Assembly: GCA_902522015.1 (NCBI GenBank)
Contig: CABYTX010000010.1
Coordinates: forward strand, 1 to 34,494
Source of the DNA: an uncultured Alphaproteobacteria bacterium
Lineage (GTDB): Bacteria > Pseudomonadota > Alphaproteobacteria > HIMB59 > GCA-002718135
Reading direction: 5' to 3'
Length of the DNA stretch: 34,494 bases
The notes beneath the pieces were generated by a model. That model saw only the letters and a list, made by a program, of their open reading frames with translations, did no database searches and was not told where the DNA came from. Below, one piece after another: positions 10,872 through 33,655 of the stretch (positions are counted from its first letter, which is position 1; every line of letters begins with the position of its first letter). A program made the position numbers and the translations under genes.

Positions 10872-10946
10872 TGGCTCCCCGGGCCGGGCTCGAACCAGCG
10901 ACCGATCGGTTAACAGCCGATTGCTCTACCACTGAGCTACCGAGGA
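10872..10946 (-). tRNA. tRNA-Asn (GTT anticodon), CCA encoded
   Basis: Reverse complement TCCTCGGTAGCTCAGTGGTAGAGCAATCGGCTGTTAACCGATCGGTCGCTGGTTCGAGCCCGGCCCGGGGAGCCA folds as a cloverleaf; anticodon loop CTGTTAA. Confidence 0.95.
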
Positions 10947-10993: not shown

Positions 10994-11067
10994 TGGAGGC
11001 TCGGAGCGGAATCGAACCGCTGTGCAAGGCTTTGCAGGCCCCTACATCACCACTCTGCCACCGAGCC
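10994..11067 (-). tRNA. tRNA-Cys (GCA anticodon), CCA encoded
   Basis: Reverse complement GGCTCGGTGGCAGAGTGGTGATGTAGGGGCCTGCAAAGCCTTGCACAGCGGTTCGATTCCGCTCCGAGCCTCCA; anticodon loop CTGCAAA. Confidence 0.95.
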
Positions 11068-30731: not shown

Positions 30732-31699
30732 TACCTAAAGATTTATCTGTCGATAATATTAGTAAAATTTATAAAAAAATTAGACCATTTATTAATAAAA
30801 CTCCTTTTTTGAAGTGTTCTGATGATATTGATAATTTTTTTTCTACTAATTTATTTTTTAAATGTGAATTTTTACAAAAATCTGGTTCATTTAAGGCAAG
30901 AGGTGCTATTAATAATATAATTTCTCAAGATCAGAATAAATTTAACAAAGGAATTACAGCAGTTAGTGCTGGAAATCATGCAATCGCTGCTTCATTTGTG
31001 GCCAATCAATTCAAATTGAAAAATAAAATTTTCTTATACGAAAGTGCAAATAAATATAGAGTTCAAACTTGTAAAAATTATGGTGCTAACATTATCTTTA
31101 CAAATCCAAAACAAGCTTTTCTTGATGCTGAAAATGCTAAAAATGAAGGTTACTATTTTATTCATCCTTTTGACGGCCCATTGACATTACAGGGTAGTGC
31201 TACCTTGGGATTAGAAATTGTAGAATATTTAAAATCAATTAATACTAAAATTGACAATTTATTAATTTCAGTTGGAGGAGGGGGATTAATAAGTGGAGTT
31301 TCATCGTATGTAAAACAATTTTATCCTAAGATTCAAATTATTGGGGTTGAGCCTGAAAATGCTAATGGTTTAAATCAAAGTTTTAGAGCTAACAAACCAC
31401 TAAATAATGTTAAAGTTAATAGTATTGCTGACAGTCTTTCAGCACCCTTACATATGCAATATTCTTTTGATGTAGCAAAAGAAGTAATTGATGAAATGGT
31501 AAGTGTTTCTGATGATCAAATGAAAGAATTTATGGTCTTTTGTTATAAAAAATTTAAGTTATTCCTTGAACCCGCATGTGTTGCTGGACTTGCTGCCTTA
31601 AAGTATAAAATCAATAATGAGCTTATTGGTAAAAATACAATGGTGATATTGTGTGGCTCAAATATTGATAAAAAAACTTGGTTAGATTTAACTAATTAA
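30728..31699 (+). CDS. Threonine/serine dehydratase-like PLP enzyme
   Basis: KCEFLQKSGSFKARGAINNI (PLP Lys), SAGNHAIAASF, SVGGGGLISG; TTG start overlapping upstream stop. Confidence 0.88.
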   Translation: MIPKDLSVDNISKIYKKIRPFINKTPFLKCSDDIDNFFSTNLFFKCEFLQKSGSFKARGAINNIISQDQNKFNKGITAVSAGNHAIAASFVANQFKLKNKIFLYESANKYRVQTCKNYGANIIFTNPKQAFLDAENAKNEGYYFIHPFDGPLTLQGSATLGLEIVEYLKSINTKIDNLLISVGGGGLISGVSSYVKQFYPKIQIIGVEPENANGLNQSFRANKPLNNVKVNSIADSLSAPLHMQYSFDVAKEVIDEMVSVSDDQMKEFMVFCYKKFKLFLEPACVAGLAALKYKINNELIGKNTMVILCGSNIDKKTWLDLTN

Positions 31700-32802
31700 T
31701 CTGGAAAATATACAATACCACCACTTAAATTTTTTTTTACACCTGTAGTATTTTTATTACTTATTTCTAAATTTTTAAATGATCTCATGCCAATATATGC
31801 AAACATTTGAGCTTCTACTAAATCACCATTTATTTTATATTTATCAATAAGTTCGATTTTTTTATTTAGTTTATTCATTAATATTTCTCTGAGTAATTTA
31901 TTTTTTCTTCCTCCTCCAGTAAGTAAAATTCTGTCAATCTTAAATTTTTTATTTTTTAATAATTCTTTAAATCCAATATAAGTCATGTAGTTAGCAGTCA
32001 TTAGCGCATCATATTTATTCAATTTTATTAGCTTATTAAAATAATTTCTAAAATAATTTCTATCTAATGATTTTGGGAACTTTTTCTTAAAGAATTTATC
32101 TTTTTTGAATTTTTCGATTAATTTATTATCAATTTTTCCTTTTCTTGCATAATTTCCATCTTTATCAAATTTTTTTTTAAAAAAATAATTACAAAGATCA
32201 TCGCTTAAGCAATTTGCAGGCCCTATATCTGATGATAATAATGTTCTTGAAACTACAGTTGAAAAATTTGCTATACCTCCAAGGTTTACTATAATCGCTT
32301 TTTCTTTAAATTTTTGAATTAAAAACTTATGATAATATGATCCAATTGGTGCTCCCTGACCGCCATTTTTAATATCATTATCTCTTAAATTACTTATAGT
32401 TTTAACTTTAAGATTTTTTGCAATTTTGTTTCCATTTCCTAATTGTATAGATATTTTATTTGATGGGTCGTGGTAAACAGTCTGCCCACTAATTGATATT
32501 AAATCGATATTTTTTTTATTAATTTTTTTTTGTTTCAGAAATAAAATTATTTTTTTTTCTAAAATATCTGTAACGAACTTATCTTTTTTTAAAAAATATT
32601 CTTTAATTTTATTATTAGTTTTTGGTTTATTTATTATTAGATTATTTATTGTATTTTGATAATTTTTATTAAATTTATATGATTTTTCACATTTAATTTT
32701 TACAAAGTCAGTCCCATTTGTATTAATCAAACTGATATCAACTCCATCCATTGATGTGCCTGTCATAACTCCTAAGACATTAAGTTTTGAATTTTTACTC
32801 AT
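31696..32802 (-). CDS. anmK: Anhydro-N-acetylmuramic acid kinase
   Basis: GVMTGTSMDGVDISLI, NLGGIANFS, SSDIGPANCLSDDL, LLTGGGRKN. Confidence 0.93.
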   Translation of the reverse strand: MSKNSKLNVLGVMTGTSMDGVDISLINTNGTDFVKIKCEKSYKFNKNYQNTINNLIINKPKTNNKIKEYFLKKDKFVTDILEKKIILFLKQKKINKKNIDLISISGQTVYHDPSNKISIQLGNGNKIAKNLKVKTISNLRDNDIKNGGQGAPIGSYYHKFLIQKFKEKAIIVNLGGIANFSTVVSRTLLSSDIGPANCLSDDLCNYFFKKKFDKDGNYARKGKIDNKLIEKFKKDKFFKKKFPKSLDRNYFRNYFNKLIKLNKYDALMTANYMTYIGFKELLKNKKFKIDRILLTGGGRKNKLLREILMNKLNKKIELIDKYKINGDLVEAQMFAYIGMRSFKNLEISNKNTTGVKKNLSGGIVYFPD

Positions 32803-32923
32803 TTTTGATCAAATTTAATTTTGCACATTTTATTAACAAACATATCAACAAAAAAAGATTATTTACTTTTAAAAATACATTTTTTTATTGATTGATAAAT
32901 AACAAACAGATAAATTATTTTTA

Positions 32924-33038
32924 ATTATTACACGCAAAGGTAATAATCAATTTAATAAAAGGAAACGATTATTAAATTGTATCGGGAGGAAATGCACGAT
33001 ACACAAAAGGGGCCTAGCTTGCTGGGTCCTTTTTTTTT
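32924..33038 (+). ncRNA. Candidate structured RNA (sRNA or regulatory leader) ending in an intrinsic terminator
   Basis: Alternative stems 32924-32930/32941-32947, 32941-32948/32967-32974, 32948-32956/32971-32979; hairpin 32978-32984/32997-33003 with GGAGG loop; terminator at the 3' end. No plus-strand gene immediately upstream. Confidence 0.55.
33009..33038 (+). terminator. Strong rho-independent terminator
   Basis: GGGGCCTAGC-TT-GCTGGGTCCT then a T run through 33038; stem pairs with G-U wobbles. Confidence 0.85.
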
Positions 33039-33082
33039 GTTTTATGGACAAATCTAATAAATAAAGTATCAGACATTTCATA

Positions 33083-33655
33083 ATGATAACAAATTATGAA
33101 AGAATTTTAGATATAATTTTAGATGATCTAATCCCATTAACAAAAATTTCAATTAATGAAGGAAATAAAATATTTGGTGGATTTATTGTTAAAAAATCTG
33201 ACCTAAGTCTTGTTTGTCTAGGCACAAACCAGGAAATCAAAAATCCCTTATTTCACGGAGAAATTTCAACTCTTTTTAATTTATTTGAAAAAAAACTGTT
33301 TAATACAAAAGATTATTACTTCATAAGTACACATCAGCCTTGTTCTATGTGTTTATCAGCTATAACCTGGTCTGGATTTGACAATTTTTACTATTTTTTT
33401 TCCTATACCGATACAAAAAAAGGTTTTCATATTCCTCATGATCTTAAAATTTTGACAGAAGTATTTAAAATCAAAGATGGTAAATATAATATTAATAATG
33501 ATTATTGGGAGAGTTTCTCAATTTTATCGGAGATTAAAAGATTAGGCATAGAGGGCTCATTATCAGATAAAATATATCAGATCAAAGAAGAGTACCAAAA
33601 AATGTCAGAAATTTATCAAAAATCAAAAATTGATAATAAAATTCCTCTAAATTAA
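33083..33655 (+). CDS. Zinc-dependent nucleoside/cytidine deaminase-like protein
   Basis: HGE (FHGEISTLF) and PCxxC (HQPCSMCLSAITWSG) zinc-binding motifs. Confidence 0.8.
   Translation: MITNYERILDIILDDLIPLTKISINEGNKIFGGFIVKKSDLSLVCLGTNQEIKNPLFHGEISTLFNLFEKKLFNTKDYYFISTHQPCSMCLSAITWSGFDNFYYFFSYTDTKKGFHIPHDLKILTEVFKIKDGKYNINNDYWESFSILSEIKRLGIEGSLSDKIYQIKEEYQKMSEIYQKSKIDNKIPLN

Follow-up and report, generated by a model that had tools for sequence, protein, structure and literature searches.

An IMES-4 family RNA with covarying hairpins and a conserved terminator beside anmK in a marine alphaproteobacterial genome

The window, that is, the whole stretch of 34,494 nucleotides analyzed here, contains a 280-bp gap between the divergent neighbor anmK (31696-32802, minus strand; Pfam AnmK, 225 bits) and a deaminase-family gene (33083-33655, plus strand; Pfam dCMP_cyt_deam_1, 40.6 bits). 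An IMES-4 RNA gene of approximately 112-115 nt, including its terminator, occupies positions 32924-33038 of the plus strand in this gap. In Rfam 15 the model RF02037 (IMES-4; type Gene) aligns over its whole length (positions 1-80 of 80) with plus-strand positions 32924-33003, scoring 101.7 bits, more than twice the curated cut-off, or gathering score, of 48 bits. An extended model, R1, which was built from an alignment containing the window's own sequence, matches 32924-33035 with 125.6 bits. At curated thresholds the window holds four Rfam 15 matches: IMES-4, two tRNA genes close together (10875-10946 and 10997-11067, both minus strand) and a glycine riboswitch aptamer (RF00504, 33682-33767, plus strand, 61.4 bits) immediately upstream of gcvT, which runs from 33849. 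The aptamer is single in the window and in other relatives, and two occur in tandem in L033 of genome G001. Most start codons in the window lack a recognizable Shine-Dalgarno sequence.

A sequence-only reading of this DNA had given the same gap length and had proposed that the gap encodes an undescribed structured RNA with mutually exclusive stems, serving either as a stand-alone sRNA or as an attenuated leader of the deaminase gene. That reading named an Rfam search as a test of novelty; since the search matched RF02037 over its full length, the label "undescribed" had to be dropped, and the RNA is a copy of the already catalogued, highly conserved IMES-4 family. IMES is an acronym of "identified in marine environmental sequences", and the source of the motifs is reportedly the study by Weinberg and co-workers (Nature, 2009). 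The literature searched contained no mention of IMES-4 or RF02037, and to our knowledge no function has been assigned to this RNA.

All segments of the proposed structure were located where they had been described. Segment A (ATTATTA) lies at 32924-32930, B (TAATAATC) at 32941-32948 and C (CAATTTAAT) at 32948-32956; D comprises GATTATTA (32967-32974) overlapping ATTAAATTG (32971-32979). These are followed by the GGAGG hairpin TGTATCG-GGAGGAAATGCA-CGATACA (32978-33003), the terminator (33005-33034) and its nine T's (33030-33038). The region 32918-33042 folds at -34.7 kcal/mol compared with -18.9 kcal/mol for shuffled sequences (z -5.07), and the minimum-free-energy fold contains A:B, C:D, the GGAGG hairpin and the terminator simultaneously. 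These elements correspond to the IMES-4 model, where A:B is hairpin 1, C:D hairpin 2 and the GGAGG hairpin hairpin 3. Hairpin P1 (32924-32947) pairs 32924-32931 with 32940-32947 around the loop ACGCAAAG and contains A:B; hairpin P2 (32949-32978) pairs 32949-32961 with 32966-32978 under an invariant G-GAAA-C cap and contains C:D; hairpin P3 (32979-33002) pairs 32979-32984 with 32997-33002 around the loop GGAGGAAATGCA.

Alignment of relatives revealed that these helices are maintained by paired changes. Amongst 27 aligned distinct sequences, standard pairs fill 95.2% of the cells in the four helices, and two-sided change is seen at 25 of 38 pairs, including 19 of the 27 pairs of P1-P3, which reproduces the three-hairpin consensus of the family. 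The covariation score was 0.359, compared with 0.179 for shuffles and at most 0.112 for slid controls, and the observed covariation values were reached by none of 500 shuffles. In this alignment, two-sided changes occur at 4 of 8 pairs of P1 and at 11 of 13 pairs of P2. In a larger, hand-anchored alignment of 48 distinct sequences, P1 is paired in 98.4% of cells with two-sided changes, P2 in 88.5% and P3 in 99.7% (two-sided changes at 5 of 6 pairs), and the terminator stem is paired in all sequences. The expectation that a structured plus-strand RNA with its own terminator exists here was thus borne out by the fold, the covariation and the conserved terminator. The sequence-only reading had cautioned that stems made only of A and T arise readily by chance; by these comparisons A:B, C:D, the GGAGG hairpin and the terminator are beyond chance, and the caution was fair for the alternative pairing B:D.

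One alternative reading has B:D toggle with A:B plus C:D in a leader, attenuator or riboswitch, that controls the deaminase gene in cis. In its favor, B:D is a perfect 8-bp match in the window, where the deaminase gene lies downstream in the same orientation. The perfect match is, however, confined to 20 of the 48 distinct sequences, the window's own and 19 from its close relatives, while the remaining lineages retain between 3 and 7 of the 8 pairs, and the B:D covariation measures equal those of shuffles among the aligned relatives. Enforcing B:D costs approximately 5 kcal/mol, its pair probability is approximately 2e-4, and the terminator stem overlaps no alternative pairing. A comparable 8-mer inverted repeat is found in 66 of 299 stretches of 115 nt (22%; the window is 28% GC). 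In our view B:D is a coincidental match between AT-only stems. The two-state switch was rejected based on the conservation, energy and chance frequency of B:D; a conserved mutually exclusive pairing, as expected of a riboswitch or attenuator, was not found, B:D being broken in most lineages.

The neighboring genes also bear on the leader role. The upstream gene is anmK (minus strand) in the window's group, and an EamA transporter gene (plus strand) intervenes in other members. Although a deaminase-family gene lies downstream of IMES-4 in most genomes, it is not a conserved partner. In genomes G001, G103 and G108 a convergent, opposite-strand PBP-like gene adjoins IMES-4, with the deaminase gene behind it, whereas G020 and G092 gave no deaminase match beside IMES-4, and two IMES-4 copies there precede gcvT. 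Because the downstream gene changes between lineages, and no consistent gene follows on the same strand, a conserved deaminase leader is ruled out; some read-through coupling to the deaminase gene may occur, as most genomes keep it downstream. The switch leader is already refuted as a conserved mechanism, and a regulatory leader of this kind is very improbable altogether.

Tandem copies are thus present in two species, G020 (L039, 2257-2336 and 2475-2554) and G092 (L040, 2390-2469 and 2608-2687); they are 218 nt apart, and each copy has its own terminator. Three of the four are divergent, with a different P2 and a terminator loop of GCAA instead of CUUG; the fourth (L040, 2608-2687) is a standard copy.

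Conserved promoter-like elements precede the RNA. With 55 distinct upstream sequences anchored on hairpin 1, two conserved motifs stand out, TTGAT (-36 to -32) and TANNTT (-13 to -8). Their counterparts in the window are the -35 element TTGATT (32888-32893, plus strand) and the -10 element TAAATT (32911-32916, plus strand), which are separated by a 17-nt spacer, the latter ending 7 nt before the RNA. The match to the promoter consensus is modest, averaging 8.4 of 12 compared with 7.4 of 12 for shuffled sequences, and the positional conservation is the stronger point. TTGAT-17-TANNTT would represent a sigma-70-type promoter, putting the predicted transcription start on the base that opens hairpin 1.

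At the other end, the intrinsic terminator (33005-33038, plus strand) consists of a lower stem whose base covaries, a near-constant core, CTAGCTTGCTGG, and the nine T's. The core CUAGCUUGCUGG is constant except in the three divergent tandem-type copies, which have the GCAA loop and are still fully paired. It occurs once in the window's assembly and is therefore not the generic terminator of this genome. Weak minus-strand R1 matches fall on the terminator palindrome and beyond. Because promoter and terminator are both conserved, the RNA is best taken as the full length given above, probably longer than the 80-nt Rfam model. The stand-alone sRNA, the other role raised at the outset, is the one favored by the conserved promoter-like elements, the terminator and the changing neighbors.

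The loops are the least variable parts of the hairpins. GGAAAC is invariant amongst the aligned relatives, and GGGAGGAAATG and CACGCAAAGG are nearly so; the window carries the near-invariant loops CACGCAAAGG, GGAAAC and GGGAGGAAAUG. Loop identity amongst close relatives overstates constraint, yet the loops hold across six genera. In the most divergent genus (G109; L041, 2195-2276) the P1 loop reads CTCTTCAAAAGG in place of CACGCAAAGG; as the loop is altered otherwise there, the comparison suggests that CAAAGG is its essential part.

The distribution of IMES-4 is narrow. The Rfam model detected it in 78 of 162 genomes of the window's order, all in one marine alphaproteobacterial family and spread over six genera, and R1 recovered the same 78 genomes. 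Some 78 of the approximately 110 genomes of this family (which G000-G109 appear to make up) therefore carry the RNA, a figure close to the expectation for universal presence given incomplete assemblies; a single copy is present in the window's own assembly. Twenty genomes of the order reach 90% completeness or more, and the RNA occurs in ten of them, all within the same family (G002, G031, G037, G049, G078, G088, G103, G106, G108 and G109). Neither model found a copy in the sister family (G110 onward), not even in G110, a single contig that is 99% complete. A 385-genome sample of the class gave two matches only, in the window's genome and in one of its own genus. A sequence anchor gave 75 matches in genome contigs titled alphaproteobacterial or Pelagibacter-type, including MarineAlpha5 bins and Pelagibacteraceae MAGs, several with marine names. 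A phage origin was rejected, as the anchor pattern gave no match in viral contigs. A search of three sister-family genomes for a syntenic RNA found no Rfam family near the deaminase relatives, which were weak (26-29% identity) and present in two of the three. The host probably belongs to the AEGEAN-169/HIMB59 group. That group comprises two subclades, one of which contains the isolates HIMB59 and LSUCC0245 (PMC10308909).

The protein partners of known sRNAs were sought in 11 genomes from both families, G000 and G110 among them; all but one of the 11 have a completeness of 90% or more. Hfq, CsrA and ProQ were each found in 0 of 11 genomes while the controls gave matches, and a Hfq- or ProQ-dependent sRNA and a CsrB/RsmZ-type sRNA, which depends on host CsrA/RsmA, are thus not supported. 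The 6S RNA model (RF00013) had no match in the 11 genomes or in the window, although a divergent 6S RNA could be missed by it; a 6S identity is not supported by these searches or by the fold, which consists of four separate hairpins and not of a long duplex with a central bubble. With Hfq, CsrA, ProQ and Rfam-type 6S RNA undetected in both families, the post-transcriptional toolkit of these bacteria seems unusually bare.

Altogether, the window's IMES-4 is very probably a free-standing sRNA gene with its own sigma-70-type promoter and terminator and a fixed fold, acting in trans. Transcription is predicted to start at 32924 or one or two bases from it and to end at the intrinsic terminator near 33038, so that IMES-4 would be transcribed alone. 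The product would adopt one fixed structure of three hairpins and a terminator hairpin. Its stems differ between relatives through paired changes, whereas the loop sequences (CGCAAAGG, GAAA in the cap, GGGAGGAAAUG) and the terminator core CUAGCUUGCUGG hardly change. Action in trans is most likely because loops and terminator core hardly vary while the stems do; the loops would serve as the functional surface, contacting a protein, the ribosome or target mRNAs, and would act without Hfq, ProQ or CsrA.

What this surface contacts is a matter of weighing three readings. The loops and the GAAA-capped stem may dock an RNA-binding protein, by analogy with the way in which CsrB-type RNAs bind CsrA. 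This reading would account for GGA in two hairpin loops and for long loop runs that are nearly invariant beyond the needs of pairing, but one GGA belongs to the GNRA cap and CsrA itself is absent from the matches in the 11 genomes; we consider it a serious candidate that falls somewhat short of probable. Base pairing of the loops with specific mRNAs is possible but rather doubtful. The loops are the most conserved unpaired segments, and each genome holds 15-24 complements of the P3 loop (ATTTCCTCC), approximately twice the reversed-pattern control; this excess, however, is confounded with Shine-Dalgarno-like sequence on the other strand (e.g., in L168 and L165), no conserved target emerged from the loop-complement search, and neither Hfq nor ProQ was found in the 11 genomes.

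The purine-rich loops could instead mimic a Shine-Dalgarno sequence and modulate translation initiation by binding the anti-Shine-Dalgarno end of 16S rRNA. The P3 loop carries GGAGG and the P1 loop AAAGG, both of which agree with the Shine-Dalgarno sequence at five bases; G000, G037, G049 and G078 contain the 16S-type motif GGATCACCTCCT; and GGAGGAAATAATATG stands at some strong start sites of these genomes (e.g., before a 499-codon open reading frame in L168). Five-base matches in a purine-rich loop are nevertheless weak, most genes of the window have no clear Shine-Dalgarno sequence, and the conserved GAAAUG and CGCAAAGG would be left unexplained. The Shine-Dalgarno-like loop and the ribosome contact are suggestive only, and this reading is unlikely. 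More speculatively still, IMES-4 could be a lineage-specific global regulator whose Shine-Dalgarno-like GGGAGGAAAUG loop engages the ribosome or an RNA-binding protein not yet described, with the terminator core as part of the surface; we give this little credence.

Compared with the catalogued family, the additions made here for this probable trans-acting sRNA are modest. The host range is narrowed to a single family of marine Alphaproteobacteria, the gene is defined more fully (candidate promoter, RNA length and conserved terminator), a conserved cis role for the neighboring gene is excluded, and the usual sRNA chaperones are undetected in the 11 genomes. These points make the function of IMES-4 testable in metatranscriptomes.

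The closest known system is IMES-4 itself as modeled in RF02037. The window's RNA matches that model from the first to the last of its 80 positions and shares its three hairpins and loop sequences; the model ends short of the terminator, whereas the terminator hairpin here belongs to the RNA. The glycine riboswitch RF00504 lies in the same neighborhood on the plus strand, 0.7 kb downstream of IMES-4, but is a separate element before gcvT with no overlap with or relation to IMES-4. CsrB/RsmZ-type protein-sequestering sRNAs resemble IMES-4 in having GGA in hairpin loops and in being terminated, stand-alone RNAs; they differ in that IMES-4 genomes lack a detected CsrA and that IMES-4 has only three hairpins before its terminator. 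The likeness concerns layout, and no sequence relationship is claimed.
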